The notes under the pieces were generated by a model, which had not been told where the DNA came from, ran no database searches, and worked only from the letters and a program-made list of their open reading frames with translations. Made by a program: the position numbers and the translations under genes. Of a DNA stretch of 64,000 bases, positions 691 through 21,306 are shown piece by piece. Position 1 is the first letter of the stretch. The number at the start of each line of letters is the position of its first letter. This DNA comes from Methanosarcina mazei S-6. GTDB lineage: Archaea > Halobacteriota > Methanosarcinia > Methanosarcinales > Methanosarcinaceae. Location: the NCBI RefSeq assembly GCF_000970205.1, contig NZ_CP009512.1:1860001-1924000 (forward strand). The letters run 5' to 3'.

Positions 691-880
691 GGGTCTCCCT
701 TATACTTATATTATCTGGCACAACTGTTTATATGTGTTTCCAGAGCTGCTCTGGTTTTATCTGTTCCGGATTAATGAAAAGTTATTAGCATTATTTTTGG
801 ATACCCGGAATAAATATACTCATTAATAAAGCAGTCCAGAAACATTCTGAACTGGAGAAAATGAGTTTGAGGGTCGAGAA

Positions 881-1555
881 ATGAGTATAAAATATGAGGA
901 ACTTTCTGAAGAATTCCCTGAGGAAGGATTTTCTGAAAATGAATTCCTTGAAGAAGGTGAAGAGTTCTCAGAACTTATAAAATATACGATCCCCGGGTAC
1001 ATTTTAGGGCTTCTTGCAGGGGTTTTTCTGGATTTCCAGGGATATCAGCGGAGCCCTGTGGGGCAGTGGCTTGTCAGGACTCTAGCCGGAGAAGGGGAGA
1101 GCATTTTTGAGGGAATTTTTTCCATCCGCCAGCGCATCCGGCAGGCTGAAGGAAGTATGGCAGAAGCTTATGGCTGGGGAAAATTTTTTGGGATTGCTTT
1201 TCCCTGGATAATTGACCTTGGGAGCCGGCTAGCTGGGGTAGATGTTTACGGGGTTGAAGGTTTTTATATCCCGTATTTTTATGCACTCAGTGACCAGATC
1301 GGAGCCAATATTTCAGGTATGCTCTTCCTCAAACGTACTGAAGGATCATGGAAAGCCGGCTTTTCCAGGTATGTCCGTCATCCGGTAATGCTTGCTAGTC
1401 TTTTTATAATCATACTTGTCCCTCTCGGACTGCTTGGTGCAAGAATTCTGGGTTTCAGCCCTACAACTCAGACATTTACAGCCCTCGAGACCATTGCAGC
1501 AAACCTCTGCTGGGTCCCGCCGCTTGCTGGATGGCTAAATGAAAAGTACCGCTGA
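881..1555 (+). CDS. Conserved hypothetical membrane protein
   Basis: A 224-residue protein that I cannot assign to a named family. The first 35 residues are strongly acidic (runs of E). Hydrophobic segments follow at about 36-52 and 170-190, with weaker ones near 105-120 and 200-215, suggesting a small multi-pass membrane protein with an acidic cytoplasmic tail. The ATG at 881 has GAGGGT six bases upstream, which fixes the start. It stands alone, 190 bases from the divergent gene on its left and followed by the promoter of the secreted gene at 1700. Function unknown. Confidence 0.7.
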
Positions 1556-1585
1556 ATTTAAAGAAAAAAAAGCAGTAGCGATCAA

Positions 1586-1622
1586 AAGTTATATATCTCT
1601 CGAATGACTACATATGTAGTAT
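1586..1622 (+). promoter_or_regulatory. TATA box followed by a 14-bp perfect palindrome
   Basis: A TATA-like TTATATATC at 1589-1597 is followed by the perfect palindrome ACTACATATGTAGT at 1607-1620, which lies where transcription of the gene at 1700 should begin. A palindrome between TATA box and start site is a typical repressor operator position in archaea. The ArsR-type regulator at 2706 is a nearby candidate ligand, by inference only. Confidence 0.4.
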
Positions 1623-1699
1623 AAACACTGCATATAGCAAAAGTAGTGTCCAGCAAGGTATATCGAAAAAAACAAAATAACTTGATGAGGGTGTAAAAA

Positions 1700-2182
1700 A
1701 TGAGGAAAACAATAACAGCAATTCTTATGGGCATACTGCTGATAGGCACTTTCGGAGCGTTTGCTGTCAGTGCAGTTGCTTCGGAAGATGCCGGAAAAGG
1801 ATACGTTTCTGGACCCATGAACAGGTGGGCTGCCAGATATGCGGATTCAGGAGATGGTGCAGGGGACCACCCTTACTGTCCTTATTACGGGACAGGTGAA
1901 ACCGCAGAACTTGAGGTCAAAACTGCAGACGAGGCTTATGAAATAGCAAAATCGGAAATCGATGACAGCATTTCCAGAGATGATATATATCAGAAGGGCC
2001 GCTGGTGGATTGTCTATTATGAAGATGAGGATGGAATCCGCACTCAGGCAAGGATCGATGCAGTAACAGGTGAAGTATTTACCGGATACAGCACCCCTTC
2101 AGGGGCTCAAATGGGCGGCAGGCACGGACGCGGTTCCGGGCATGGCAGAGGTCCGGGAAATTGTATGGGATATGGAAATTAA
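1700..2182 (+). CDS. Secreted PepSY-like domain protein
   Basis: A 160-residue exported protein. Residues 1-26 form a clear signal peptide (basic MRK start, hydrophobic core ILMGILLIGTFGAFAVSAVA). Residues about 70-125 resemble a PepSY domain: an AYEIAKSEI helix, then strands with RWWIVYYEDEDGIRTQARIDAVTGEVF, where the VDxxTGEV-type turn is characteristic. The C-terminus is Gly/His/Arg rich (GGRHGRGSGHGRGPG), possibly metal binding. PepSY domains are often protease inhibitors or sensors outside the cell. The ATG at 1700 has GAGGGTG upstream with a six-base gap. A palindromic operator candidate lies in its promoter. Confidence 0.65.
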   Translation: MRKTITAILMGILLIGTFGAFAVSAVASEDAGKGYVSGPMNRWAARYADSGDGAGDHPYCPYYGTGETAELEVKTADEAYEIAKSEIDDSISRDDIYQKGRWWIVYYEDEDGIRTQARIDAVTGEVFTGYSTPSGAQMGGRHGRGSGHGRGPGNCMGYGN

Positions 2183-2414
2183 AATTGGTTTTAAACCGTA
2201 TATAATTCCCCCTCTTTTTACTTGCTTCAATCAGCTAATTTTTCAGATTTAGTTTTTATATCAGGCTTTTTTTACCGGGTATTTTTTATATTTAAGGTTG
2301 GAATGAGTATTTAAAGGAAAAATAAATTCAATAATAAGCAGTGAATAAGAAAAAATAAAAAATTAAGTGAAAACAAATAAAATAAAAAAATCCAGTTTTT
2401 TCGAGGTGAAATGT

Positions 2415-2630
2415 TTGAACGGTATGGGGTACGGAATGTATGGCTCTTTCTGGGGTTTCTTCCTGAATCTTCTCATTATCCTGCTCATTGCAGGCGTAGC
2501 TGTGTTAATGCTTAATAGGTCCGGTTATATGGCTTCCAGGGATAATGAAAGGCTTGTTAAGATCGAAAAAGATATTGAAGATATTAAAAAAACAGTTGAG
2601 GATATAAAATCCAAACTGGAAGAAATCTAA
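2415..2630 (+). CDS. Small membrane-anchored coiled-coil protein (TTG start)
   Basis: About 71 residues. A GTG at 2367 opens the frame further upstream, but the TTG at 2415 has GAGGTG at 2403-2408 with a six-base spacing and gives a compact protein. It starts with a Gly/Met/Tyr-rich segment (NGMGYGMYGSFWGFF), has one membrane helix (LNLLIILLIAGVAVLML), then a charged coiled coil with K/E/I heptads (ERLVKIEKDIEDIKKTVEDIKSKLEEI). The architecture resembles small envelope-stress membrane proteins, but no family can be named. It lies 75 bases ahead of the ArsR-type gene and may be co-transcribed with it. Confidence 0.6.
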   Translation: MNGMGYGMYGSFWGFFLNLLIILLIAGVAVLMLNRSGYMASRDNERLVKIEKDIEDIKKTVEDIKSKLEEI

Positions 2631-2705
2631 AGTTAATATGCTCAAATTTGTCACACTTAAAATAACTTCCAGGAATACTTTAAGATCAGAAAACTATATT
2701 GATTT

Positions 2706-3023
2706 ATGAGGGTGCACCAGGTGGAAAAATCACTTCAGCAAATAGTTGAAATTGGCGAAGCCCTCTCTCATCCTGTAAGGTTAAAACTTCTTTATCTTCT
2801 GGCTGAAAGAGAGCGGTATGTGTATGAACTCGCCAAAGATCTGGACCTCTCAAGACAGGTTGTAAACCTGCATTTGAAACGCCTGGAAAAAGCTGGATTT
2901 GTCGAGAGTGATCTAAGGCTTGAAGATGATGATATGAGGGCAAAGAAATTTTATCGGCTAAAAGAGTTTGAGGTTTCTCTGAGTATGGAAGATCTCGAAA
3001 AGATTTTTGAAAAGCATTCCTGA
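2706..3023 (+). CDS. ArsR-type winged-helix transcriptional regulator
   Basis: A 105-residue winged helix-turn-helix protein. Residues 15-75 carry the ArsR-type core: IGEALSHPVRLKLLYLLAE (helix 1-2), YVYELAKDLDLSRQVVNLHLKRLEKAGFVES (recognition helix), then an acidic beta wing (LRLEDDDMRAKKFYRL). No Cys cluster for metal sensing is visible, so it may respond to another signal. It follows the small membrane protein at 2415 and the PepSY-like gene and is the natural candidate to regulate them. The ATG lacks a strong ribosome site and the mRNA may be leaderless. Confidence 0.8.
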   Translation: MRVHQVEKSLQQIVEIGEALSHPVRLKLLYLLAERERYVYELAKDLDLSRQVVNLHLKRLEKAGFVESDLRLEDDDMRAKKFYRLKEFEVSLSMEDLEKIFEKHS

Positions 3024-3265
3024 AAAATAGCCCATAACTTCAATCTTATTTTTGAGCCATTTAGATACCCGTAAAAGTATATTTCCAGATTTCTCATTCA
3101 CCATTTATGCTCGGATACAGCAGGAAAAACTGTCTATAAAGTGTCTTTCTTCGTCCCAAATCTTTTGTATCCAGAATCAGAACTCCGGATAAACTGATAT
3201 CTCCATATTTAATAATGTTTAAACAGGCATATATCACAGGATAACCAATCATTATTGGGGTTATC

Positions 3266-4123
3266 ATGGCTACTGGAGTTATTAGGGGCGCGGAGCTTTC
3301 GCCATCGTATATTATTGAAGAGATTCTCGGTTTATATCAAAACATAGTGGTTCTGTCCAATGAAGAAATCGTTTATGGTTTATCGGACCGGAACAGGGAG
3401 CTTTTTCAGGAGCTTGAGTACCTGGTTAGCCTGGAAGTTGAAGATAGTGTGGTGCAGGATATACTACAAAAAAAAGAGCTGGAGCCAGCATTTACTGAAA
3501 TTAAAAGATTCAGGAACCTTTATACCGTAAGACTTGAAACCGAGCATGCAAAAGAAATCCTGTCCAGCGATTCTCCCTGGGCTTCCCTTGAAATGTTCTC
3601 TTTTTACGGAAATTATCTCAAGCTTGTACGCACGGAGTATGAAGGTCTGAGGCTTTCTTCCGGAGATACTGTTTTTTTTCTTGGAAGCGGCCCGCTTCCT
3701 TTAACTCTGATTGTTTTTTTCAGGCTGTACGGAGTGAAAAGCACTGGAATCGAAAAAGACTCCTTCCGGGCAAATCTCTCAAAAAAAGTACTTGAAAAAC
3801 TTGGGCTTTCCAGTGTAATCAAAATAGTAAACGGAAACCACTTTTCTCTAAGCAGGAAGGACTTAAGCTTAAGTCCGGATACAGGGGTAAAAGCCCTGAT
3901 GATAGCTGCCCAGGCTGAACCGAAGAAAGAGATCTTCGAGCACCTTCTGGAAGTCATGCCGATAGGAGGTAGAATTTCGTGCAGGATTTATGAAAAAGGG
4001 CTCCGTAAATTATTGAGTGGAAACTGCCTGTTTGACCTGCCTGAAGGTTTCGTGGAGCAGGAAAGAGTACAACCCCAGCCCCCGGTCTATAACACAGTCA
4101 TATTCTTTGAGAAAAAGAGGTAG
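3266..4123 (+). CDS. Nicotianamine synthase-like protein
   Basis: A 285-residue protein of the nicotianamine synthase family, which condenses aminocarboxypropyl groups from S-adenosylmethionine into nicotianamine or, in archaea, a related opine-like metal chelator. The helical N-terminal domain covers residues 1-115. A Rossmann fold follows, with the SAM motif DTVFFLGSGPLPLTLIVFF (near 132-150), the acidic loop residue in GIEKD (near 160), and LMIAAQAEPKKEIFEHLLEVMPIGGRI (near 210-238). Length suits the shorter archaeal members rather than the plant enzymes. The ATG at 3266 has TGGGGTT upstream. It is monocistronic and convergent with the surface-protein gene. The product and metal are not shown by sequence. 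Confidence 0.75.
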   Translation: MATGVIRGAELSPSYIIEEILGLYQNIVVLSNEEIVYGLSDRNRELFQELEYLVSLEVEDSVVQDILQKKELEPAFTEIKRFRNLYTVRLETEHAKEILSSDSPWASLEMFSFYGNYLKLVRTEYEGLRLSSGDTVFFLGSGPLPLTLIVFFRLYGVKSTGIEKDSFRANLSKKVLEKLGLSSVIKIVNGNHFSLSRKDLSLSPDTGVKALMIAAQAEPKKEIFEHLLEVMPIGGRISCRIYEKGLRKLLSGNCLFDLPEGFVEQERVQPQPPVYNTVIFFEKKR

Positions 4124-4330
4124 GACTTAGCATCCATTTTTTTGCTGCCAAATTGTGTTTCTTGCAGCGATAGTAAATAATGCCGGATAGGAAGTTCCCC
4201 CATCCAGCTTTCTGAGCTTTACTCTTTTTTACCGGATCTGGATTCCGATTTCGAATCCTTCTTACGGAACCGGTGATTGATGCTGTCCGTTTGTAATGTT
4301 TGGTGCTTTTACATTAATCTGGTATTTTTC

Positions 4331-6055
4331 TTATCTTATGCTGCTGGTGTTGTTACACACGTTGACTACATTACTTTTCGTAATTGTACAGTTGCTGTTG
4401 CTTACTGTCAGGTTGACCCTGTAACTGCCCGGTTTACTATATACATGTATAGGGTTCTGTTCAGTTGAATTTGTCCCGTCTCCAAAGGTCCAGTACCATC
4501 TGGTTGCATCTTTTGACAGGTCCGTAAACTTCACTACAAGAATGAGATTGCTGGTGAAGTTTGCAGCAGGGCATTTTGGTACTGTAGGACATGTAGGACA
4601 TGGGCATGTGGGACATGGCGGTTTTGGTACCGGGACAACACATACACAATGTCCAGTGGTAGAAACCGGAATATTGCGTGCAGGCGCCGTTGATATAACA
4701 TTGTTATTTATCGTATTAATTATAGTGACCGTGTTACTGTTAAAGTTAGTCACGTGTGCCTCATTGCCTATTATTGAAATTGCAGCAGGATATTCTCCAA
4801 CATTAATTGTGCCTATAATGTTGTTGTTTATCGTGTTAATCACAGTAACAGTATTGCTGTTAGCGTTACAAACAAATGCCTTATCTCCCGTGACTGCAAT
4901 TCCGGTAGGATAGCTTCCAACGTTAATTGTGCCTATAATGTTGTTATTTATCGTGTTAATCACGGTAACAGTATTGCTGTTAGCATTAGTTACAAATGCT
5001 TTATCTCCTGCGACTGCAATTCCAGCAGGACGCTCGCCAACATTAATTGTAGCTGTTACGTTGTTATTTATTGTGTTAATTACAGTAACAGTATTGTTGT
5101 TAATATTGGTCACAAGCGCCTTTTCTCCTGCAACTGCAATAGCACCAGGTTTTTCTCCAACGTTAATTGTACCTATAACATTGTTGTTTATTGTGTTAAT
5201 TACAGTGACCGTATTACTATTTACATTGGTCACATATGCATTTTCTCCTGCAAATGCAATTCCAGAAGGATAATTTCCAACATTGATTGTTGCTTCAACA
5301 CTGTTGTTTATTGTATTGATTACTGAGACCGTATTGTTGTTAATGTTAGTTACATATGCACGTGTCCCATCTGGACCGACCGCAATTCCTCCGGTATCAG
5401 GGCCTACATCCAGTGTAGATGTAGTATTTGTTTCTTCGTCAATTATAGCGACAGTACCGTTAGTTTCGATTAATGGTGATACGATTTCCGGTGCTGTAAA
5501 ATCCTCCTCAGGTACTGTTATAGCCTCCTCCGGTACTGTTACACTATCTTCTGATACTACTACATCCTCCTGTGGTATTGTTTCAACAGGTACTATTATT
5601 TCTCCAGTGGGCGTCACTTCTTCTGTTGGTGTCACTTCTTCTGTTGGTGTTACTTCTTCTGTTGGTGTTACTTCTTCTGTTGGTGTTACTTCTTCTGTTG
5701 GTGTCACTTCTTCTGTTGGTGTCACTTCTTCAGGAGGTGTCGCTTCTTCAGGAGGTGTTACTTCTTCAGGAGGTGTTACTTCTTCTGTTGGTGTTACTTC
5801 TTCTGTTGGTGTCACTTCTTCGGGAGGTGTCACTTCTTCAGGAGGTGTCGCTTCTTCTGTTGGTGTTACTTCTTCAGGAGGCGTCACTTCTTCGGGAGGT
5901 GTCACTTCTTCTGTAACGTTAGCGTCTGGTTCTGTCGGTAATAACGTTTCCCCGTTCTGTGCGCTAACTGATGCAACAGTTATTGATATTAAAAAGATAG
6001 ACATCATGAAAATGCTTAATATCTTGTGCATACTGTCAGACTTTTGTTTCCCCAT
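4331..6055 (-). CDS. YVTN beta-propeller / PKD surface protein with Pro-Glu-Thr repeat stalk
   Basis: A 574-residue secreted protein. Residues 1-32 are a signal peptide ([22 protein letters not shown]). Residues about 45-160 are a low-complexity stalk made of [12 protein letters not shown] hexapeptides. Residues about 210-455 hold roughly six 42-residue YVTN-type blades ([19 protein letters not shown], then INVGxYPxGIA), forming a beta-propeller as in Methanosarcina surface-layer proteins. After a Cys/Pro-rich hinge ([15 protein letters not shown]) comes a PKD domain ending near residue 565 ([24 protein letters not shown]). It is probably an extracellular adhesin or envelope protein. There is no obvious C-terminal membrane anchor. 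GGAG lies ten bases before the ATG at 6055. Confidence 0.85.
5612..5911. repeat. 18-bp minisatellite coding for the TPTEEV stalk
   Basis: About sixteen tandem copies of an 18-bp unit (plus-strand form GGTGTCACTTCTTCTGTT), with variants where the last bases read AGGA (PPEE) instead of TGTT (PTEE). It lies in frame in the surface-protein gene, so copy-number change would lengthen or shorten the stalk without breaking the frame. Confidence 0.85.
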
Positions 6056-6810
6056 TAGTTATACACTCCAGATTTTGCTAAATTTGATACAATTTGACCT
6101 GGTTCTTTGATTCACTTTTAGCATATATGCTGATTGAGTTATATTACCAGTTTAATTCTCGCCATTATTCTCAGGGGAGAATATTTAGGTAAAACCTATT
6201 TTTGCTTGGAGCGAAAACGGCTCAAATTGCATCTACAAAGTATTAATTTTCGGAGAATATAATAATGAAAGAACTATAATTCAGAAGTCAATATAAATAA
6301 AAACCGGAAATTCTTTAGTCGTATGCTGTGAATATCTTTCAAGCAGTAGCATTCTTGATTGATTCTACTTGTATATTTATGAACTAATAAAAATACTAAC
6401 CTCCTTTTCTATCAACGATAAATTAGAGATTTATACAGCATGGAATTACAGATAGTAGAAAAACTGACAAAAACATCTTATAGCTCTATGTTTGTTATAA
6501 AAATTGGTTTTATTAAAGTATGACCTAAAATATGACTTGAAAACTCAGTAAATTTTTTATACACGTCATCTCATGTATTAGTATGAAATATATACACGGT
6601 TTTTATTGGGTTATGCCTATAGTTTTCTTTCTTACAATATTCTGGATCTTCAAGAAGATTCTAAGTTCTATTAAGTTTCGAAAATCTAATGTCAAATTGC
6701 GCACAGCCGCCCTACCCTGAAGATTCCAAAAAAGAAACTGCTCCAGAAATTTGGAGCGCTGTTCCAGATAAGTAACCTGAGACAATAAATGAATTGAAAC
6801 AATAAACGAA
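6056..6810. other. Long AT-rich intergenic region
   Basis: It holds the promoter of the surface-protein gene (minus strand) and the 3' flank of the MerR gene. A short inverted repeat ATTCTC-AGGG-GAGAAT lies near 6167-6184. A 60-codon minus-strand frame at 6603-6785 has no ribosome site or recognisable composition, and I do not call it a gene. Confidence 0.4.
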
Positions 6811-7665
6811 TTATCTCTCTCTGATCCGGACTTGGACCTCAGTCATCAGTTCTTCTTCCGGGACTTCAGCAGGGTCATTGAAATAAAGTTCCCTGCTCGG
6901 CATCATTGTCTCCAGATTGTTTTCTTCTGCATAGGAAAAAATCTTTTTATAAGCTGCTTCAACCCCGGGGTATGGGCCCCTGTAAATAACGGAAACTGCT
7001 CTTACAGCAGGCAGTGTCTTTATTTCCATTATGGGATCTTCCACTGAGAGCCTTCCTGAAACCGGAAGTGCAATCTCTATATCCGCACCTGTTTCTTTGT
7101 ATTCCTCGTCGTGGCAAAGGAACATAATAGGACCTGTAGTTTTTACACGGTTACGCTGGTTTTCAGGGCTGCTAACACATACACAGATTTCGCCAATTAG
7201 TTTTCCTATAGTTTCTACAAAGTTCCCTTTTTCACGTTTGCTCAATACTCGCAGCTCAGGAATCTCTTTAATAACGGGTTCTGTAATTGACATTTTGAAT
7301 ATCTCCTTAACTTTTCCATTCTGTCTGCAGGCGCCCTGCAAAATGCCCTCGATCCTCTGCAGCTTTCCTGCCTCCAGCCGGACTTCCTCAAGCCTCTTCC
7401 TGAAACAGGTCTCAATAAATTCATTATTTCCTTTGCTTTCTGCGTCCAGAAGCATGGAAATTTCCTCAAGGGAAAATCCCAGGAAAGTAAAGGTCTTGAT
7501 TTTCATTCCCAGCTCGATCTGGGGAACCGTATAGTAACGGTAGCCTGTAAAAGAGTCTTTTACTTCCGGAACAAGCAGCTCTTTACTATCATAGAGCCTG
7601 AGAGCTTTCTGGGAGAGACGGGTCATAAGGGAAAATTTTCCGATTGGGATCTGATCGACTGGCAT
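6811..7665 (-). CDS. MerR-family regulator with GyrI-like effector domain
   Basis: About 284 residues. Residues 7-75 are a MerR DNA-binding domain (IGKFSLMTRLSQKALRLYD, then the winged part with GYRYYTVPQIELGMKIKTF). A connecting helix follows (about 95-115), then a GyrI/BmrR-like effector-binding domain (residues about 140-284, with VRAVSVIYRGPYPGVEAAYKKI and a C-terminal MTEVQVRIR strand). Such proteins activate drug- or stress-responsive promoters by distorting an operator in the spacer. The ATG at 7665 is preferred, but a TTG at 7674 is equally possible since no Shine-Dalgarno precedes either and the message may be leaderless. A near-perfect dyad lies upstream (7710-7729), consistent with autoregulation. 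Confidence 0.85.
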   Translation of the reverse strand: MPVDQIPIGKFSLMTRLSQKALRLYDSKELLVPEVKDSFTGYRYYTVPQIELGMKIKTFTFLGFSLEEISMLLDAESKGNNEFIETCFRKRLEEVRLEAGKLQRIEGILQGACRQNGKVKEIFKMSITEPVIKEIPELRVLSKREKGNFVETIGKLIGEICVCVSSPENQRNRVKTTGPIMFLCHDEEYKETGADIEIALPVSGRLSVEDPIMEIKTLPAVRAVSVIYRGPYPGVEAAYKKIFSYAEENNLETMMPSRELYFNDPAEVPEEELMTEVQVRIRER

Positions 7666-7730
7666 CTTGCTCAACCCGTTAATTGTCCTGAAATTAGATA
7701 AACTGCCTTACTTTTCCCCGGGGAAAGGTT
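7661..7730 (-). promoter_or_regulatory. MerR gene promoter with GC-rich dyad (copy 1 of 3)
   Basis: Reading on the minus strand: the dyad at 7710-7729 (core TTTCCCCGGGGAAA), then a TATA-like TTTATCTAA about 30 bases ahead of the ATG, then the first codons. The same 70-bp segment recurs at 12143-12213 and 22403-22473. The GC-rich dyad stands out sharply in AT-rich DNA and is the likely binding site of the MerR protein. Confidence 0.65.
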
Positions 7731-8023
7731 TGAGTTTAAGAATAAATGTGTATTTAACATCCTCGTTTTTGAGAATTTTGATTTGATTAAAAAATAATAA
7801 TTCTACAGTGTTAGATTCAAGGACGTGATCATATTGTAATTACAATTCTATATTTATCCTTCATATTTAATTAGTTATAAATGTAAAAAGCAGTTAGTAT
7901 TTTTTAATAGGACGAAACCGCAAACAAAAAGGAGTATCTCAAACTGGACAAATAATATGATCTATTTTTTTTGTAAGATTTAACCAATAGCTCACGGACA
8001 CGGCAAACTTATGGAGTAACTAA

Positions 8024-9970
8024 ATGTCAAAAATAATACCGAAGAAGGTAAATAAAAGGGATAGATTAGATCTAATCATTTCAACTTTAACAGCCCCTCT
8101 TTTATTTATAATTATATTTTCCTCTATTGTTTTGATAGCTGTTGCACAAATTGATGGCGTAGAAGAGTATACAACCGACACAGAATACGCTCCAGATGCT
8201 GAGTTTTCTGCAGATGTAATCTGGGGATATGCACCTTTGACTGTAAAGTTTACTGACGAAAGTACAGGAAATCCTACTGAATGGAAATGGAACTTTGGCG
8301 ATGGATCTCCGATAATAGATGGTACTACTTCTGATTATCAGAATCCGACTCATACCTATGAAAAAGCTGGAGTATATGAGGTAAAAGAGACAGCCATCAA
8401 CTCGGCAGGTAGAAACACAGAGATAAAACCACATTATATCACTGTAAAGTCTCCTGAGGAGATCGACGATTCTGATTATTCTGGATTCCAAACCTCAGAA
8501 GAAGAACCTGATGCTGAATTCTCTGCAGATATAACCTCGGGATATGCACCTTTGACTGTAAAGTTTACTGATGAAAGTACAGGGCACCCCACTGAGTAGA
8601 AATGGAACTTTGGCGATGGATCTCCGATAATAGATGGTACTACTTCTGATTATCAGAACCCGACATATACCTATGAAAAAGCTGGAGTATATGAGGTAAA
8701 AGAGACAGCCATCAACTTGGCAGGTAGAAACACAGAGACAAAATCACATTATATCACTGTTGTATCTCCTTATGATCCAGATCCCCAATCTCCAGAATAT
8801 GCTCCAGATGCTGAGTTTTCTGCAGATGTAACCTCTGGATATGTACCTTTGACTGTAAAGTTTACCGACGAAAGTACAGGGAATCCCACCGAATGGAAAT
8901 GGAATTTTGGAGACGGCTCTGATATAATAGATGGAACTACTTCAGATTATCAAAATCCGACTCACACATATAAAAAAGCTGGAATTTATGAAGTAAAAGA
9001 AACAGCAATTAATTCTGCAGGTAGAAACACAGAGATAAAAACAGGGTATATCACTGTAAAATCTCTTGAGCAAATCTCCGAGAAAGAACCTGACGCTGAA
9101 TTTTCTGTAGATGTAACCTCTGGATATGCTCCTTTAACTGTAAAGTTTACCGACAAAAGTTCAGGGAATCCCACTGAATGGAAATGGAACTTTGGCGATG
9201 GATCTCCGATAATCGATGGATTTACCTTAACTTATCAGAATCCGACCCATACCTATGAAAAAGCTGGAGTGTATGAGGTTAAAGAGACAGCAATTAATTC
9301 AGCAGGTAGAAATACAGAGATAAAAGCAGGATATATTACTGTAAAACCTTCTGATGATTCTGACCTCCAACCTTCAAAACATACCCCAAATGCTGAGTTT
9401 TTTGCAGATATAACCTCTGGATATGCTCCTTTGGCTGTAAAGTTTACCGACAAAAGTTCAGGGAATCCCACTGAATGGAAATGGAACTTTGGCGATGGAT
9501 CTCCGATAATAGATGGTACTACTTCTGATTATCAGAATCCGACTCATACCTATGAAAAAGCTGGAGTATATGAGGTAAAAGAGACAGCAATTAATTCAGT
9601 AGGTAGAAACACAGAGATAAAAACAGAGTATATTACTGTAAAATCTTCTAAAGATATTGAGAATACCGATTATTCTGGATCCCAAATATCAGACGAAAAA
9701 TATTTTACAAGAGATTCTCAGGACGAATCTGATACGGAGACAGATGTGCCCCCACAAACTCAAATAATCGAGACTATAACACAGTTTTATACAACTCATG
9801 TTGAAGATATTAGTACTACTTTTATTGATGATAAGGATACAAATACTATTTATAATAACCCAAGTTCTGATCCTAGCAATGGAGATTCCATTGTTAATAA
9901 TATTATTACTGTTATTGGTTCTATTATTAGTGCAGTTATTGTTGCCTATATCCAAACTAAAAGAAAATGA
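8024..9970 (+). CDS. Five-PKD-domain membrane-anchored surface protein with one in-frame UAG
   Basis: The frame from ATG 8024 runs to TGA at 9968-9970 (648 residues) if the single TAG at 8597-8599 is read through. The part after it continues in exactly the same frame and completes PKD repeat 2. An N-terminal hydrophobic segment (residues about 25-44) acts as signal or anchor. Five PKD domains of about 80 residues follow (near nt 8190, 8510, 8800, 9090, 9390), each with NPTEWKWNFGDGS, QNPTHTY and a YITV end. The C-terminus has a transmembrane helix (IVNNIITVIGSIISAVIVAYI) and a KRK stop-transfer tail. In the other four repeats the TAG position is TGG (Trp). Methanosarcina can insert pyrrolysine at UAG, so a full-length product is possible. 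The alternatives are a 191-residue truncation or a recent pseudogene. An A residue in place of G is the only change needed. Confidence 0.75.
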
Positions 9971-9986
9971 AAAACCACTTCAAAAA

Positions 9987-10022
9987 AATATACTTGATTG
10001 AAAATTTTCAATCAAGTATATT
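9987..10022. terminator. Perfect 36-nt palindrome after the PKD gene
   Basis: An 18-bp perfect inverted repeat with no loop centred on AAAA/TTTT (arm AATATACTTGATTGAAAA), 16 bases after the stop codon. It could form a long hairpin at the mRNA 3' end or act as a protein-binding dyad. AT-rich stem content is unusual for a terminator. Confidence 0.5.
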
Positions 10023-10558
10023 CTTGGAGATTTCTCTACTTTGACTTTATGTTCCTACATTCGGCAACAAGCACATTCTAACATATAAATATCCCTAATT
10101 GTTATTTTTTGTAGGTTCGCTTCAAAACCAATATCATACGGACTATATATTCAACCTGATTTGACATTCATTTCATTTATTGTAAATATATATTAATTAT
10201 TTTATGGTTGTCCTTTAGTAATTTTTTATTTAAATTTAATTTCAAAAGTTCTGAAAAAAAACGATATCAACAGAAAAATTGAATGGATTTTTATGTCGAC
10301 CTGCCGAAAGCAGGATGTTGGTTACATTTTCCACTAAATAATCTTAACAAACTATAACTCAGTGGAAGAAATAATAGTGAAGTTTTAAAATAAACTTTAA
10401 AATTCATTTAGTCTTAGAAGAGTCTTTAATTTTAGATACCAATTTTTAAAGTTTCTAGATGATGAGAAATCTTGGGGGTTTATTTTTTAGTACTGAAAAA
10501 TCAATTTTAAATAACCTAAGTTTGACAGCATCCACTAATTGATACTTTATTTTTCCCT
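10023..10558. other. AT-rich spacer between PKD gene and IS element
   Basis: No gene is supported. One small GC stem-loop (CCTGC-CGAAA-GCAGG) lies at about 10302-10316. The rest is AT-rich sequence with stops in all frames. Confidence 0.4.
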
Positions 10559-12119
10559 TCTTTTTTGTCCCAATTTGACTTGACAATTCGTTCAATTTTA
10601 TAAAAATTTCTTACATATTCTATGTAATTCCATTCCATTTTGCTACTATCAAGCTATTGATCCTGTCAAAATTCGCAAAAATATAGTTTTTGACGCCATT
10701 TATCCTGAACTTGATTGTAAGTGTCAAATTCTTCAAGCTTTTTTTAATGAATTTTGTAGAGGTGTGTTTTAGCTCTTCAAATTCATATCGCATCAGCGAT
10801 ATGAATAATTGAGCGATAAATCCAAGGATAATAGCTCCATAAATGCTATCCTCCGACCACACTCTTAACGGCTTAATCTGAATTTCGTTTTTCAATGAAT
10901 GGAATATTTTCTCAATAGAATCCTTTTTTCTGTATGTTACTAACGCATCTTGAAGTGTCAAATTCCTGTTTGATTTCAGACAAAAAAATCCTTCTCTTCC
11001 GTTAATCAGTGAAGCTTTAAGGAGTTCAATAGCTTCGTCGTCACTAAGCTCTTCGAGCTTAGTTTTAAAAGAGTAATCAATCTCAATCAATTCATTATTT
11101 ATTCTGAATTTCTTAGGAAGCTTTTTCTTGTTTACTACAGCTTTCTGAATCTCTTTTGCTTCCTTTAACTTCCTCATAACAGCTCTTGCTTTTGCCTCTA
11201 ACTGTCTTTTCTGTAAAGATTCAGAGAAATATAAGTATTTGATGCTGCTAGGCTTGACGATTTTTATCCCATATATACCTTTTTTCGGAATCTATTAGTT
11301 CTGCTTTTTCCAGATAAAAGTTCTCTATTATTTTATCGTCACTTGTATTCAGTTTCATGGCAGTGAGATATTCCATCTCAGCATCCTGTATACTCTTGAG
11401 ATTATCAGTGGTATTAGCTCCTTTATCAAAAATAATAAGAGAACCTTTTTTAAGTTTACTTTTTACCTGGTTATATGTGTCAGAGAAATGCTCCAGATCA
11501 AGAACGTTTCCTCTATTCACTGTAACTCCAATAGGAATGTTAATGGGATTAGCTAATTCACTAATTCCAACGGTTATCTGTAGCTTATCAGGTCTGTAAT
11601 CTCTGCTATACCCGTATTTACCAAGTTTGGATTTAGTTCCGAAAAGAACTATACTCGTCCAATCCAGGTTTATATCTGTCTCTTCAAAATCGTATACAGA
11701 AAACAGAGAATCCAGAATATCAGAGAGAATTTCCTCTCTGTTACGTCCTAAAAGTTCAAGAGTTCTGTAAAGAACTCTTTCATGAAACTGTTCAAGATTT
11801 AAGATATCGAGAATCTCTTTCTGATTTAACCATTTGCCAGCTTCTTTGATACTGAAATTCTCAGTTAATTTATAGCTTAACAAACCGATTATTAAACTAT
11901 TGAGGTCAAGACCTTTGCTTTTATGCTTGCTAAAAATGTCACAGAAATTAAGCTTTTCATAAAAGAGTTGGACGGCAAGAATCGGTCCGATAGGAACACA
12001 TATATTCTTGTTAGGAATTGTAGGGAAGGCTCTATGTTTTGTGATGTTCATTTTACCAAACAACACAAAACAAAGAGCACTTATTTTTATATTACTGTCA
12101 AAGTCAGGATAAAATACAT
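10559..12119 (-). mobile_element. Degraded IS4-superfamily (IS1634-like) insertion sequence
   Basis: The element holds a two-part transposase on the minus strand. Weak candidate terminal inverted repeats are TTTTTGTCCCAATTTGAC at about 10562-10579 and, in inverse orientation, TTTTATCCTGACTTTGAC at about 12098-12115 (roughly two-thirds identity). No clear target duplication is visible, so the borders are approximate. Confidence 0.45.
10620..12066 (-). pseudogene. Frameshifted IS1634-like transposase
   Basis: The N-terminal part (12066 to 11248, 272 residues) contains the first DDE strand (INLDWTSIVLFG, near residue 155) and the second (LIIFDKGANT, near 212). The C-terminal part (frame ending at 10620) contains the YREK-type motif YRKKDSIEKIFHSLK with the catalytic Glu. 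Between them the frame shifts by one base near 11248-11270: the first frame ends NRQA-stop while the other frame reads smoothly KIVKPSSIKYLYFSESLQKRQ across the same spot. A single frameshift is the simplest explanation. An A-rich run (GATAAAAATC) sits at the shift, so programmed slippage is not excluded, though this family normally uses one frame. Confidence 0.8.
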
Positions 12120-12142
12120 TTTGTCCAAGAACTATAAATATA

Positions 12143-12213
12143 TACTGGCATCTTGCTCATCTCTAAATTACCCTGTACTTAGATAAACTGCCTTACTTTT
12201 CCCCCGGGGAAGA
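12143..12213 (-). promoter_or_regulatory. MerR promoter/operator copy 2 (truncated gene start)
   Basis: About 70 bp closely match 7658-7730: the first codons (ACTGGCATCTTGCTCA on the plus strand), the AGATAAACTGCCTTACTTTT block and the GC dyad (here CCCCCGGGGAAG). The match ends abruptly inside the first codons, beside the insertion-sequence end. It looks like the 5' stub of a second MerR gene that was cut off. Confidence 0.6.
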
Positions 12214-12662
12214 CCTCAGTAAATAACTACAATTGATATGTGTTTGTTCGAAAGTAAATTGCTGGTAATCTGTTTTATTTTACGAACTGATCCTAAAGCT
12301 CAAAAATCGCTTCGTTGAATCTCGATATTAGAATAATCAATCGTGCTGTTGATTACGAAAGTAGCTATTAAACTCTTATGCACGTGGAAATAATATCAGT
12401 TTTGGGATAGGCTTAATAAGTGAACCATTACGAAATTCAAGATCGATTCAAAAAATAAGAATGTCGGAATCATTAAAATAAAAATTGAATAGTCTGGACC
12501 CGGTTTATTATACGGATCCGTCAGCTTGGAACCACAAATGTCTATGGAATAGTAATTTCCACTCTATCTTCCTCAAGCCTGGGCTGGATAATTGGTCTCA
12601 CCCCGCCCTTTAATCTCTTTCTTTTTTACAACTGCTTCATCTATTGAAATCCGAGAATTGTA
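12214..12662. other. Spacer between MerR stub and orphan gene
   Basis: No gene or clear signal is recognised beyond scattered AT-rich tracts. Confidence 0.35.
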
Positions 12663-13046
12663 ATGTATCGAATTCTGAACAACTCTTTACTCCTGCCCGG
12701 AGCTCAAAAAGCTTTTAATATCGGTGAGAATATCGAGATGATAATGATAATGGAGAAAACAGCAAGAGAAATGTACGCGAAAAACCGCGAAAAAATCATG
12801 CAAAAAGCAAGGAGTTCCAATAGCGGGTTTTTTGGAGTGGGGTTCTATAATAACTTCAGCGTTTTACTTTCGGAAAAGAGTACAAGGCCTGGAATTCAAT
12901 GGGATAATAATCCTGAGTTTCACTTTCAGGTGCCCTGTAAGAGGTTGCTGAATTATCGTTACCTTGATGAGCTATTTACCGAAGCACTGGATAATTATCT
13001 TCTTACCGGCAAAAAATTTTTCGTGAAAGATGAGAAAGATGAGTGA
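12663..13046 (+). CDS. Hypothetical protein
   Basis: A 127-residue frame of unknown family. It has a charged helical segment (MEKTAREMYAKNREKIMQKARSS, split here by position near 30-52), then an aromatic-rich part (GFFGVGFYNNFSVLL) and a C-terminal LDELFTEALDNYLLTGKKFF segment. It has no signal peptide or membrane helix. No ribosome site precedes the ATG, so translation may be leaderless. It sits in the relic-rich accessory zone and could itself be a fragment. Confidence 0.45.
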   Translation: MYRILNNSLLLPGAQKAFNIGENIEMIMIMEKTAREMYAKNREKIMQKARSSNSGFFGVGFYNNFSVLLSEKSTRPGIQWDNNPEFHFQVPCKRLLNYRYLDELFTEALDNYLLTGKKFFVKDEKDE

Positions 13047-13076
13047 CAGACTGGATTGTCATTTACCTCATTTAGA

Positions 13077-13337
13077 TTACTTCAACCCTGGGGATTTTAA
13101 GGAAATTCGGAATTCCCAATTTAATTTATTTTTATTTACAGGTAAGAAATTACATCTGACCATCGCTTCTTTAAACTGCTTATTTGTGATAAAGAAACCA
13201 CCTGGTGTTTGTTCAAACAAATTTTTAAGTGCATAACTGGTGTAATTTTTATTTGGCGTTTTTTGTGGGAGTATATTTAACATTATCCAATTATCCACGG
13301 CTTTTTTTTCAATATCGGTTAATTCGTATTCACTCAT
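13077..13337 (-). CDS. Small winged-helix-like orphan protein
   Basis: An 86-residue protein starting at ATG 13337, chosen because AGGAG lies eight bases upstream (a GTG nine bases further out overlaps that site). It reads SEYELTDIEKKAVDNWIMLN, then a helix and SYALKNLFEQTPGGFFITNKQFKEAMVRC and LNWEFRIS. The TSYxLKxxFE...GGFFITNxQFKEAM pattern resembles small DNA-binding proteins found in phage and mobile DNA; this comparison is from memory. It is convergent with, and 30 bases from, the gene at 12663. Confidence 0.6.
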   Translation of the reverse strand: MSEYELTDIEKKAVDNWIMLNILPQKTPNKNYTSYALKNLFEQTPGGFFITNKQFKEAMVRCNFLPVNKNKLNWEFRISLKSPGLK

Positions 13338-13473
13338 TTTTCTCACTCCTGTTTTTCATAATTTGCAAATAAAGTACCACTGAGCTATGCCTTGATTTCC
13401 TTTATTGGAGAACAAAATTGGTTTTGAGATGAACTCACAGTCTATACACAAATATTTAATGTCGTTGACAGAA

Positions 13474-13632
13474 TTATGCTTTTCCTGCATTTCTCGCCTT
13501 CTTCATGGCTACCTGATTCGCAGGAAATGATCTCTGGCAGTTTTCGCATCGGTAGTTACGCTTTTTCGTGTTTTTAGTTATATCAGGTGAATTGCAAAAC
13601 GGGCATACTTTTATTGTATTTGTGGTAGTCAT
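13474..13632 (-). CDS. 52-residue zinc-ribbon protein
   Basis: A short gene starting at ATG 13632 with GGAG nine bases upstream, ending at TAA 13474-13476. Two CxxC knuckles (CPFC near residue 10 and CENC near residue 29) flank a basic linker (TKNTKKRNYR), the hallmark of a zinc ribbon. A basic tail follows (QVAMKKARNAGKA). It may be a nucleic-acid-binding accessory protein or the N-terminal ribbon of an InsA-like transposase subunit that now stands alone. The ribosome site and intact knuckles argue for a real gene. Confidence 0.65.
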   Translation of the reverse strand: MTTTNTIKVCPFCNSPDITKNTKKRNYRCENCQRSFPANQVAMKKARNAGKA

Positions 13633-13797
13633 TAAAAAAGCTCCAGAACAAACTTAAACACTCGTTTTTAATTATCTTCGTTTTTACTGCTCTCTTATAC
13701 ACTCTTATAGATAAACGTAAACACTCAAAAATTATACAAATAATTACGCTGCTAAAGTAATTTAGAGGCATAAAATCGAGTTATTCGAGTTAATAAA

Positions 13798-13896
13798 CAG
13801 TCTGAAGAAACAAATTCAGATAAACCGTTCAGTCTTAACAGCCATGTTCTTGAAAGAGTAAATAAATGGGAAGCTCTGGTTTCAGGTCAAAAGTAA
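13798..13896 (+). pseudogene. cas1 C-terminal fragment A
   Basis: Thirty-two codons end the same way as the other cas1 tail fragments in this window: SDKPFSLNSHVLERVNKWEALV then SGQK-stop. The upstream part of the gene is absent; preceding sequence has stops in this frame. See the entry at 16443 for why these are called cas1. Confidence 0.55.
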
Positions 13897-14229
13897 AAAA
13901 TATGTATAGTTTTTACTGTAAAAGTCACATCCTCTTTTTGAACCTATTCTTCAAGAATTACAGAAGTTATATCTTACATCCTTTGCAAGCACAGCACGAT
14001 TTTTTATATTTTCCGTAATTATAGAAATGTCCCTTGATTGGTCACATATTGAAAACTGAGATTTCCAGTATTTTCACGAGAATTCTCGTAATTATACGTG
14101 ATATTTTATCATTTATGGTTCAACAAAAGAGAATACAAATGTGCCAAGACGATGAACAAATTCATTGTATATGTTAGAAAAATTTCAGGTTTTTTAACCT
14201 CAAGTTTAAAGCATAGGAGCCAAAAATAT
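13897..14229. other. Spacer with a 14-bp palindrome
   Basis: Non-coding AT-rich DNA. A perfect palindrome ACGAGAATTCTCGT lies near 14083-14096, followed by AATTATACGTGAT. No adjacent gene start explains it. Confidence 0.35.
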
Positions 14230-14418
14230 TCACCGCCAAGCCATCTTGTCAAGCATCCTGATTAAGTTATTTACCTCATCAAAGGATAAGTCGGTCCAGC
14301 TATTTTTGTAATATTCTTTGCAGTACTGATCAATTTTTTTGTGCCTCTCCATATAATTAAGAGACTTTATTAATAAATCTTTTTGCCTAGATGTTATCGA
14401 AGAATCCATAAACTTCAT
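14230..14418 (-). CDS. Small hypothetical protein
   Basis: A 62-residue protein, mostly helical and basic (SSITSRQKDLLIKSLNYMER, then WTDLSFDEVNNLIRMLDKMAWR). AGGAG lies five bases before the ATG at 14418, a strong start signal. I cannot name a family. A short helical protein of this kind in an accessory zone could be an antitoxin or mobile-element accessory protein, but no partner gene is adjacent. Confidence 0.55.
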   Translation of the reverse strand: MKFMDSSITSRQKDLLIKSLNYMERHKKIDQYCKEYYKNSWTDLSFDEVNNLIRMLDKMAWR

Positions 14419-14569
14419 AAATACTCCTTATCCATTTATTAGTAGTTTAATCACTGAAAAGCAGAAAATATCAAAAGCCTATGCTTTTTATAATTATATA
14501 TATGGAGTTCATGTTATATATATGCCTGTATTAAATGAAGGTATCAATATATAGCTATGACTCGTTCGT

Positions 14570-14853
14570 CTTGTAGAAGCCAACTCAGAGGTGCTAATTG
14601 CAGGAGTTAACCCTACAAGGGCTGACCTTACAGATGCCAATCTTATAGATGCTACCTTGCAAGAGTTGATCTTTAAAAAGCAACCTCATAGAGGCAAAAC
14701 TTGAAGAGGCTAACCTTAAAGGAGCTCAAAATCTAATTGTTGACCAGCTTTCCAAAGCAAAAACACTTTACAATGCGGGATTGGATAAAGAGCTAGAGAA
14801 ACCATTAAGAGAAGTATCCTGCCCTCTTTGATAAACTTAAAGTTGAGCCTTAA
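14570..14853 (+). pseudogene. Broken pentapeptide-repeat gene, 3' part
   Basis: Reading across two frameshifts gives pentapeptide-type repeats (TRADLTDANLIDATL, then NLIEAKLEEANLKGA), a QNLIVDQLSKAKTLYNAGLD linker and a C-terminal KYPALFDKLKVEP-stop, which together are the normal end of a Methanosarcina pentapeptide-repeat protein. The first frameshift is near 14670 and the second near 14812. No intact start is present, so this is a decayed gene. Confidence 0.75.
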
Positions 14854-14905
14854 ATTAATCCGTTCCTTAAAGACACACTAGAAGTAGAGAAAAAAGATTC
14901 TGAAC

Positions 14906-15063
14906 ATCTCTTACGTTGATTGGAAGAAGCTAGGGTTTTCTAAAGGTACTTTATATTATATGAAGCTATGAAGCAGGATACCAGGTCAGATAAACCCTTT
15001 ACTCTTAATAGCCATTTTCTGGTAAAGGTAAATAAATGGGAATCATTGGTTTCAGGTCAATAG
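14906..15063 (+). pseudogene. cas1 C-terminal fragment B
   Basis: Reads ISYVDWKKLGFSKGTLYYMK, then a seven-base duplication (ATGAAGCT-ATGAAGC) shifts the frame, and the tail resumes as SDKPFTLNSHFL...NKWESLVSGQ and ends in TAG. It lies 50 bases after the pentapeptide relic. Confidence 0.6.
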
Positions 15064-15321
15064 TAAAAATGTGTATATTTTTGCTGTAAAATAGTAAAAT
15101 AATATTAGCATAATTGTAAAGAGTTTAAATTAACAATCTAAGCTTACTTATTTTTTTACCTTTATTTTTTCGGAATATTTTTTATTGCATACTGAAAAAT
15201 CTTCATAAAATCAGTTCGATTTTGAACTTTCTCTCTTTTCAGATTCGAAAGCTTTAAAAATAAAATGACATACGAAATAGCAGTTGGAACAAGTATATCC
15301 AGCCTGTAATTTATATAAAAA

Positions 15322-16191
15322 TCATTTCAGTGTATGCTGGACAACGCCTTTTTTAGCTGTCCTGTAAGACTTCTCTGCAAGTTCCACACTTCCCTTTACT
15401 TCAATGATTTCCATATCGAAAGTGCGGGCAAAATCCCGGACGTTTTTGTGGAAATCCGGGTCGTATGAAAGACCTGTATCGAGTTTTACCACTCGTGAAT
15501 ATCTCGGGTCCTTCAGGTAATTCTCGTTGAAGTTCCGGGATTTCTTCCTTTCTTCCCTCATCTCTTTCCAGCTTGAAGCCCACATGGACGTGAAATAGAG
15601 AGCACCAGTCCCCCTGCAGGTGTACATGAGTTCATCATAGGCGGCATTTCCTCCGATAGCGGCGCTTATGCAGTCTACCACAACTTCCTCATTTCCATCT
15701 TTAAACCAGTAAAGGGGGCAGTCAAATTCCAAACAATTCTCTTCCAGATTCTCAAAGGCTCCTCCGCAACTGCAGTAAAAGAGAAGGATTCCGTCTGAAA
15801 AAGAGGTCATCTCCTTGATATTTTTGTAGACTTCAGACCTGAGGATCTCAATATCATCATGAAGTCCTAGCTTCAGGAGGTTCACAACCACTGTCAGTTC
15901 TTGAGCCGCTTTAATCTTCATCTTCTCGTGAATTTTCCTGAAAAAAGGAAGTATAAGCAGGGGTTTTGAAATAGTCATGAAGCCAGAGCCGTGCCCGTTT
16001 CCCAGGAGAAAAGGAACCCTATCCAGGGGCGATGTTCTGGGCAGGCAGTTATCGGACCTGAGTTTCCGGAGCAGCCCGAAACTATCCTTGTTTTCCACCA
16101 CAATTAACTGCTTCATTTCCTTATCACTGGAGATTATATGGGCAAGCTCATCCTCAAACATCCTGCAAGAGATAATACTCAGTACGGGCAT
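15322..16191 (-). CDS. DUF1638-family protein
   Basis: A 289-residue protein with the DUF1638 pattern: an N-terminal ISCRMFEDELAHII, a central Cys-rich strand LLFYCSCGGAFENLEENC (near 150-168), and a YTCRGTGALYFTSMWASSWKEM segment (near 200-222). Members occur in methylotrophic methanogens, often near corrinoid methyltransferase genes, and several conserved Cys/His suggest metal or cofactor binding; the reaction is not known to me. AGGGG lies eight bases before the ATG at 16191. No methyltransferase gene lies nearby here, so it appears as a single gene. Confidence 0.7.
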   Translation of the reverse strand: MPVLSIISCRMFEDELAHIISSDKEMKQLIVVENKDSFGLLRKLRSDNCLPRTSPLDRVPFLLGNGHGSGFMTISKPLLILPFFRKIHEKMKIKAAQELTVVVNLLKLGLHDDIEILRSEVYKNIKEMTSFSDGILLFYCSCGGAFENLEENCLEFDCPLYWFKDGNEEVVVDCISAAIGGNAAYDELMYTCRGTGALYFTSMWASSWKEMREERKKSRNFNENYLKDPRYSRVVKLDTGLSYDPDFHKNVRDFARTFDMEIIEVKGSVELAEKSYRTAKKGVVQHTLK

Positions 16192-16442
16192 GTGAAAACC
16201 CCTTTCCGGTTGTTTTTTAATTCTGATTCTGTTACGATTTAAAAAAAATGCTGGATAACCTATATTTTGAAGCCCTATAATTTCCTATCGATAAGCCATT
16301 AGTTAGAAAAAAATTACTATTATACCTGATCGTAATTCTAAGAGTGTATATTCCTGTTAAAAGGATCAGGCAAGCTCTTAACCACAAAACTTCCTCCTGA
16401 GAGTACCAATATAAAAACAAAGAGAGTACCAATATAAAAACA

Positions 16443-16716
16443 AAATTTGCTCAGTATCATGCTTTTGAGGGTAAGAAAACAAGGCTAGAGATAGCAAAGA
16501 GGTTTATTGAGGCTAAACTAAAAGGTCTAAAGCTGTTCTTGATTTCCTGAGCCAGAGGTATCCTGAAATTAAATTTGATATTTTGGATGGACTCACAAAG
16601 TTAAAAGGTGTAAAGAGTTTCAGGGAACTGTAGGTCTGGATGCTCATGTAGGGTTTTTGCATGAAATCACACCAAGCAAAAATAGCTTAGTATATAGCCT
16701 ACTTGACCTACTTTAA
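16443..16716 (+). pseudogene. cas1: cas1 central fragment C
   Basis: Decayed coding sequence with one frameshift near 16523 and one stop at 16632. Pieced together it reads KTRLEIAKRFIEAKLKG, then KAVLDFLSQRYPEIKFDILDGL...LKGVKSFREL, then GLDAHVGFLHEITPSKNSLVYSLL. The last piece matches the Cas1 integrase active-site region (G-x-D-x-x-x-G-x-L-H ... S-L-x-x-D-L-x-E), including the metal-binding His; the usual Asp in YDLME is replaced here (YSLLD). This fragment identifies the shorter tail relics in the window as cas1 remains. The gene is clearly dead. Confidence 0.7.
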
Positions 16717-16811
16717 GAGTCACTGAAGAAATTTATCAAACTCATCGATCAGAAACGGATAAATATTTTGTATACAGTTTAATTAGTGTTAATTACTTCA
16801 AGGGGATTAAA

Positions 16812-16973
16812 ATGGCAAAGAATACTGGAGAAAATAGAAGAAATGGATCTGTCAAAGGAAGAACACAGACATACAACCCTGTAACGGATCAGCATGTAAA
16901 GAGAGATGCAACGACTGGACAATTTATCGGTGCGAAGAAAGGAAAATATAAAGGTATTAGAGAAGAAAAATAA
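16812..16973 (+). CDS. 53-residue basic hypothetical protein
   Basis: Starts at ATG 16812 with AGGGG seven bases upstream. The sequence is very basic and Gly/Asn rich (NTGENRRNGSVKGRTQTYNP, VKRDATTGQFIGAKKGKYKG), without hydrophobic stretches. A widespread orphan family with the core NGxxKGRxQxYNP...KRDxxTGxF is familiar from prokaryotic genomes, but its role is unknown to me. It sits among cas1 relics as an intact gene. Confidence 0.6.
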   Translation: MAKNTGENRRNGSVKGRTQTYNPVTDQHVKRDATTGQFIGAKKGKYKGIREEK

Positions 16974-17118
16974 CCGACCACTAAAGGTTAAAGAGATTGA
17001 TTATTTCTTTAAAACGGTTTTATTTCTTTTTAGACTTAAATTGAATTCTTGTACAGTATATTAGCATGTACACTTATCTTCTGTAAATACATACAACATT
17101 ACAGCCATATCTAGGGAT

Positions 17119-17409
17119 TTACAAAAACTCAGAAATTTTGTATGCATTTTGAAGCCCTAACAGTACTGTGCCCACCCCACGTTCTGACAGGCGTACAAAT
17201 CCTTTTGGGATGCTTTTATCCACAAGTTTAGCGCGATACAATTCTTTGACTGCATTTTGATCTAGTTTTGATTGCTTTTCCCAACCTTCGTTTATGCCAA
17301 GAGTTCCCATTTCATATAGATGTTTAAGTATTTCGCTTTCCATAGTTTCTAAAATGTACATACCTATAAACTCCTGATCTTCATTATCTGAGAGAAATAA
17401 AGTCTTCAT
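17119..17409 (-). CDS. Small winged-helix-like hypothetical protein
   Basis: About 96 residues from ATG 17409 (a TTG at 17430 would add seven). The content ETMESEILKHLYEMGTLGIN, then DQNAVKELYRAKLVDKSIPK and GFVRLSERGVGTVLLGLQNA has the helix-helix-recognition helix-wing order of a winged helix and may bind DNA. There is no Shine-Dalgarno; an AT-rich region with TATA-like elements lies upstream. It lies between cas1 relics and upstream of the first Roco gene's 3' end. Confidence 0.5.
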   Translation of the reverse strand: MKTLFLSDNEDQEFIGMYILETMESEILKHLYEMGTLGINEGWEKQSKLDQNAVKELYRAKLVDKSIPKGFVRLSERGVGTVLLGLQNAYKISEFL

Positions 17410-17750
17410 TAGTGCAATGAGGGTAATCAAATTTTACAAACAAAAGCAAAAAGCTCCATTAATCATTGATTACAATCACAACAATAAAGTTAACGAAATA
17501 TTATTTATTATTTTCATAATATCAAAAACAGTAGGTAGAAGAATAATATAAGATTAAACTAATAAAAAAAATTGAAGAGTTTATGTGAATTTCTCCACTG
17601 GAAATTAAGGAATGAGCTGGTTTCAAAATTCCGCTTATTCATGTATTTGATAAAAAGTATCAATTCTATTAAGTTCTGATGATCTTGATTTGTCCACTCC
17701 AAAAAATTGGCATGGAAAGATTGAGGGTAGTTTTAAAGCAAGCTCAATAG

Positions 17751-17948
17751 AAAATTATAGACCGTAAAGCCAGAAACCTGAAGGCTGTCTGTGCCTGTCT
17801 TACTTTAAAATATATGTATCACTCATTTTCTAAAGGCACTTTACATTATATGAAGCAGAATGCCAAGTCAGATAAACCGTTTACTCTTAACTCTCATTTT
17901 CTGGAAAGGGTGAATAGGTGGGAAGCATTGGTTTCTAGTCAAATGTAA
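17751..17948 (+). pseudogene. cas1 C-terminal fragment D
   Basis: An uninterrupted 65-codon frame KIIDRKARNLKAVCACLTLK, then FSKGTLHYMKQNAKSDKPFT and LNSHFLERVNRWEALVSSQM-stop. The first part matches the late Cas1 helix (a run of RKAR before the C-terminal tail). The WKKLG portion is replaced by YMYHS, so the piece is a relic with an internal change. It lies 118 bases from the 3' end of the Roco gene on the opposite strand. Confidence 0.6.
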
Positions 17949-18066
17949 AAGTATGTATAGTTTTTACTGTAAAATGTAAAAAAGGAAAGTTTACTGTAAA
18001 ATGTTAAAATGTAAAATTACAGTAAATAGTTTAAAAACTAATAAATTTATTTCCTTTAACAGTTAA

Positions 18067-20859: not shown

Positions 20860-21306
20860 TATCTGCCTCAACTACGATTAATTAACTCTTATATGTATTC
20901 CCAATTACATCATACAGTCCATACTTTTACTCCAAAAGCTTTTTCTTTTTATTCAGTTTTATTTGTCACCTTTAATTTTTGAACAATTTGAATCGTTAAA
21001 AATAAAATTGAATAAAAAGAAGATTGGTATTTTGGAAAAAACGTTTGGCTATTTTTATACCATCATTTGATATAAAGACATGAAAAATATATTTTTGGAT
21101 AGGACAATTTTTGAATAATAGCGGTGTGTAAGCTTTATAAACAGCTTCTTTTCTTAGATGGCAATACTTTATTGTTTAACTTAATTTAAGTCTATAAAAA
21201 GATGTACCAACTGAAAGAGCTTGAAGATATCCTGAAAGCTTGAAAGAACAACAAGCAATCTTTAAAAACTATGGAGTGATTGTAGAAATAATGAGCTGGT
21301 GATTAA
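20860..21306. other. Divergent promoter region of Roco copy 1 and the membrane gene
   Basis: On the minus strand a TATA-like ACATATAAGAG lies about 30 bases ahead of the Roco start. Near 21096-21135 there is a block (ATAGGACAATTTTTGAATAA and a TGTGTAAG) resembling the degenerate repeats at 22017-22245. No gene is visible. Confidence 0.45.

Follow-up and report, generated by a model that had tools for sequence, protein, structure and literature searches.

Does an amber codon inside an otherwise open surface-protein gene of Methanosarcina mazei S-6 end the protein, or is it read, at least in part, as pyrrolysine (Pyl)? The question is raised by a gene for a protein with PKD repeats, located near the left end of the 64,000-nucleotide stretch of DNA analysed here (the window, genome positions 1,860,001–1,924,000; positions refer to it unless given as genome or L-numbered locus positions). 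The features of the gene are the following.

8014–8017, + strand: GGAG, a likely ribosome-binding site, 6 bases 5' of the ATG
8024–9970, + strand: five-PKD-repeat surface protein gene, from ATG at 8024 to TGA at 9968–9970 (648 codons with TAG as sense)
8060–8164, + strand: N-terminal hydrophobic segment, signal or anchor, residues ~13–47 (by hydropathy)
8195–8446, + strand: PKD repeat 1, with TGG at 8282
8510–8761, + strand: PKD repeat 2, bearing the TAG
8597–8599, + strand: in-frame TAG (residue 192), TGG in the sister repeats
8807–9058, + strand: PKD repeat 3, with TGG at 8894
9092–9343, + strand: PKD repeat 4, with TGG at 9179
9389–9640, + strand: PKD repeat 5, with TGG at 9476
9884–9967, + strand: C-terminal hydrophobic anchor, followed by KRK (by hydropathy)
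9984–10025, unstranded: near-perfect 42-base palindrome just 3' of the TGA, possibly a transcript end signal

In translation, the repeats are 84 residues each and are separated by linkers. Pfam recognized five PKD_4 stretches in the 648-residue product (E 1.8e-74), indicating that the frame is not a chance one, and the bit scores exceeded the curated cut-offs (246.2 versus 27 for PKD_4 and 187.5 versus 23.5 for PKD). The other two forward frames contain 49 and 63 stops over the same interval. The encoded protein is an array of five PKD domains with a membrane anchor.

It had been noted in the first-pass annotation that only the TAG at 8597–8599 interrupts the frame, that repeats 1, 3, 4 and 5 have TGG there, and that the downstream part stays in frame up to a C-terminal anchor. 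These observations hold. TAG is the sole internal stop across the 648 codons, the sisters read GAATGG or an equivalent where repeat 2 reads GAGTAG, and 1,371 bases are open after the TAG, with the hydrophobic anchor and KRK at their end. A single G-to-A change, as had been proposed, is enough to explain the codon, TAG being one base away from the sister-repeat TGG. The residue replaced is the first Trp of the motif WKWNFGDG. Among 153 distinct PKD motifs from congeners, 148 have TGG at this site, the others have R, R, V, V and T, and none has TAG. Given that Arg occupies the equivalent site in 2 of 28 motifs of the own genome and 2 of the 153 congeneric ones, a long polar side chain may, judging from these sequences, be tolerated there; pyrrolysine at such a strongly conserved Trp site may also unfold the domain.

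The read-through suggested at first pass depends on the pyl genes, and these are present and open. The genome has one copy of pylT, with anticodon CTA, followed by open pylS and by three open genes that we take, from position and sequence, to be pylB, pylC and pylD. The PylS start, MDKKPLNTLISATGLW..., is that of Methanosarcina mazei. With this set of genes, UAG can be decoded. UAG is described as sense and stop alike in M. acetivorans, where an amber codon placed in a reporter was read through at 20–30%, and the PYLIS element is reported not to be essential (PMC2933860). On the reporter value, some full-length Pyl-bearing product is to be expected from the PKD gene, if it is expressed.

A PYLIS-like element was not found at the TAG by Rfam search, folding or comparison with the sister repeats. 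The Rfam search gave zero matches at the gathering score and none meaningful below it. The 100 nt beginning with the TAG show no folding beyond that of shuffled sequences (z = -0.22), and the equivalent stretch of the sister repeats gave a similar result. Moreover, repeats 1 and 5 share without any difference the 60 nt that begin with the final base of the TAG, indicating that this site has not evolved a recoding element of its own. No conservation of the TAG was seen either, the paralogous repeats having TGG and the 30 congeners having no ortholog.

Relatives of the gene are widespread at the level of its repeats. Matches occur in 31 of the 31 Methanosarcina genomes searched; in the 30 genomes other than that of S-6 the similarity is repeat-level only, and residues 1–56 and the final 108 have zero matches in the congener loci compared. 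The closest homologs (L058 and L010; 66–71% identity) were rejected as orthologs, being shorter repeat proteins that lack both terminal parts of this one and have no TAG. Two TAA codons in the L058 match were likewise rejected as interruptions, since they lie where its open frame of 499 codons ends. A search of viral contigs found no relatives, and a search of genome contigs found more distant PKD proteins only. Among the Methanosarcina PKD matches listed, no TAG was seen besides that of 8024–9970; the stops there are TAA or TGA and are possibly gene ends.

The surroundings of the gene are variable, as is seen from the comparison with the congener G025.

7748–22403, unstranded: insertion relative to G025, containing the PKD gene (loci L073 and L078)

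In G025 (L073), the MerR-type gene (6811–7674) adjoins the serine-hydrolase gene (22535–24199), and the order is the same in L078. The insertion is 14.7 kb long, with direct repeats of ~75 bp at its flanks (7663–7740 and 22406–22481, 84.6%). The start region of the MerR-type gene is present in three direct copies, the two flanking the insertion and another at 12144–12212. Within the island, a transposase is split over two frames (ORFs 10620–11177 and 11248–12066), and 12200–18000 consists, like a patchwork, of segments found separately in other genomes. The absence from G025, the transposase and the patchwork make it plausible that the PKD gene is dispensable. Two further observations concern the window. 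The stretch 742–6723 is likewise missing between flanking homologous stretches of G025 (L073), representing either a second insertion or a deletion in G025, and two near-identical leucine-rich-repeat GTPase (Roco-like) genes (18067–20871 and 61645–63915) lie ~40 kb apart.

Our answer, which we regard as probable, is an amber allele that is young and near-neutral, that is partly read through with insertion of pyrrolysine, and that is comparable to the one in Thg1 of M. acetivorans. One change from TGG to TAG would have hit repeat 2 of the five-PKD gene. UAG would be ambiguous in the cell, so that the release factor would terminate most chains at residue 191 and Pyl-tRNA would let a minority continue; some protein of 648 residues, carrying pyrrolysine at position 192, would thus be made. 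A lineage-specific gene, a variable island and a read-through that softens the loss together suggest that the TAG is probably recent and near-neutral. Expression of the gene, the reading of its UAG and the extent of this reading, as well as the neutrality and youth of the allele, are what we infer.

The alternative that survives best, although we consider it unlikely, is that the gene is a plain pseudogene at its first step, little expressed or unneeded, in which the stop happened to be TAG by chance and any read-through product has no role. Its lineage-specific character, the lack of orthologs and its place in an island beside a transposase broken by a frameshift and a mosaic of fragments speak for such a pseudogene. 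Against it, there is one lesion only in 1.95 kb, with start site and frame intact and with dN/dS of repeat 2 not raised, in agreement with the earlier statement that the rest of the gene shows no decay. Pairwise dN/dS among the repeats is 0.10–0.34 overall, with 0.10–0.21 for pairs including repeat 2 and 0.11–0.34 for the others; the repeats have thus been under purifying selection in the past. Of the codon changes seen only in repeat 2, 12 are synonymous and 5, the TAG counted, are non-synonymous, with the amino-acid changes N26H, H53Y, I77T and S70L. Congeners vary at the N26H site, whereas they mostly have His (32 of 37) at the H53Y site. Nevertheless, this pattern fits a long-constrained gene with a late TAG as well as a TAG that is read, and the lack of decay does not discriminate between them because a young nonsense allele looks identical.

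As a genome-wide control, stops with coding-like sequence on both sides were surveyed in 2.4 Mb (58%) of the 4,142,816-base genome. Under a strict test (60 coding-like codons on each side, score 0.12), 4 of 35 TAG-ended coding ORFs passed, namely mtbB (twice), mttB and the PKD gene. A looser test gave 25 TAG cases in the same 2.4 Mb, which include, apart from the PKD gene, 14 IS66-type transposases, mtbB (twice), mttB, a subtilase-like gene, a diphthamide-synthase-like gene, an I42 gene, a PAS gene and three weak ones. Orphan in-gene TAGs number ~5 when counted generously, two of the five lying only at a domain edge. Real in-gene interruptions by the other stops, according to Pfam tests, are two TAA and one TGA (genome 358033, DUF4367; genome 1305566, HATPase_c_4; genome 3218719, transposase), at least three in all among the candidates scanned. 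Most TAA/TGA "interrupted" candidates were rejected, being two adjacent genes in the same frame, for instance DHQ synthase/dehydroquinase or two HsdM. The excess of orphan TAGs (5) over TAA/TGA (3) is not significant, with a binomial p of 0.06–0.11 even at shares of 0.30–0.35, so tolerance via read-through lacks statistical support. TAG accounts for 33–42% of possible nonsense mutations and would be unsurprising in a pseudogene, and TAA/TGA-broken genes in the same genome speak for this alternative as well.

The survey also provides parallels to a young, partly read amber allele. In the diphthamide-synthase-like gene (PF01902; genome 2391391, - strand, L201:11104–11943), TAG takes the place of a CAG present in 8 of 8 congeners. 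The homologs in these eight congeners are 81–85% identical, and after the TAG the mean identity is 90.1%, versus 86.2–89.6% in congeners without TAG. This conserved post-TAG part indicates that the genome has TAG alleles free of downstream decay at other places too, and neutral Pyl insertion could be tested more cleanly on this gene than on the PKD gene. The family has a further gene, separate and intact, at genome 2923256. The subtilase-like gene (genome 2022542, + strand, L103:1792–3294) has tandem repeats with an M15 peptidase domain downstream; its repeat 2 has TAG where repeat 1 has Gln, and no match was found in 30 congeners. Separately, an in-frame TAG at a domain edge was observed in the I42 chagasin-type inhibitor gene (genome 63247, - strand, L108:2966–3796) and in the PAS gene (genome 2249202, - strand, L194:8888–9256). 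All 14 IS66-type transposase copies in the 2.4 Mb, e.g., genome 1825775 (+) and genome 203751 (-), have the TAG between DUF6444 and zf-IS66 (DHPE*VIEHSL) and are likely one of the published amber transposase families; with mtbB (twice) and mttB, they serve as internal positive controls for TAG-bearing genes in this genome.

It was also suggested at first pass that the near-identical repeats could repair the codon by gene conversion. Conversion-like tracts are indeed present, and the codon is nonetheless still TAG. Such identity extends over 119 nt between repeats 1 and 5 (p = 5e-5), 76 nt between repeats 4 and 5 (p = 0.002) and, from the last base of the TAG, 60 nt between repeats 2 and 5 (p = 0.005). 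The tract common to repeats 1, 2 and 5 starts exactly at the last TAG base, and in the preceding 30 bases repeats 1 and 2 differ at 7 positions. Conversion could thus restore the codon and has not done so. Near-identical repeats are also prone to assembly errors, and the TAG might come from an error in sequencing or be polymorphic in the culture that was sequenced. We consider this improbable, since the differences between repeats 1 and 2 near the TAG (7 of 30 nt) make reads placeable and the assembly, a single contig, has a completeness rating of 99.97%.

The weakest alternative, selected pyrrolysine, in which the surface domain gains a new property from Pyl or UAG ties full-length display to the Pyl supply on methylamines, has in its favour the pyl genes, the sole strict-test TAG in the 2.4 Mb besides mtbB and mttB, and the Arg at the same site, but is very improbable for a TAG that is unconserved, without ortholog or recoding element, and one base from a TGG whose Trp is kept in almost all congeneric motifs. 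Evolved or selected use of pyrrolysine at residue 192 is therefore unsupported, and the "possible pyrrolysine" of the first-pass annotation, taken as a used residue, finds no support for want of a recoding element, codon conservation, an ortholog or a significant orphan-TAG excess. Least likely of all, and highly speculative, is the idea that the amber ties the display of the anchored, full-length PKD array to the supply of Pyl-tRNA; were it true, the cell surface would shift with methylamine metabolism and pyrrolysine would be exposed outside the cell.

The PKD gene is a candidate addition to the short list of non-methyltransferase genes where Methanosarcina may insert pyrrolysine. Together with the other orphan ambers, one of which has sense-codon orthologs and no downstream decay, it offers concrete genes for asking whether an ambiguous UAG turns nonsense into something missense-like.

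Among known systems, Thg1 (tRNA-His guanylyltransferase) of M. acetivorans is a case of a neutral in-frame amber with species-specific, non-essential Pyl, according to PMC2933860 (citing Heinemann et al. 2009). Each gene carries, in a Methanosarcina able to decode Pyl, a TAG at a place where its relatives use a sense codon; for the PKD gene the comparison is with the TGG of sister repeats, in the absence of an ortholog. In contrast to Thg1, a conserved enzyme in which Pyl was physically observed, the PKD gene is lineage-specific and repetitive. Like mtmB, mtbB and mttB, it has an in-frame TAG in a long ORF. Whereas the TAG of these genes is conserved, catalytic and efficiently read, that of the PKD gene replaces a Trp, is unconserved and has no catalytic setting. 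Amber-containing transposases have been reported in M. mazei and M. acetivorans (PMC2933860, PMC3639795), and they share with the PKD gene a TAG within a non-metabolic gene; the transposase TAG is common to all listed copies, whereas the PKD TAG is found in a single gene. Finally, the product resembles other Methanosarcina PKD-repeat surface proteins in being a membrane-anchored array, with five PKD_4 stretches, and differs from the listed Methanosarcina PKD matches in that its gene, 8024–9970, carries a TAG.
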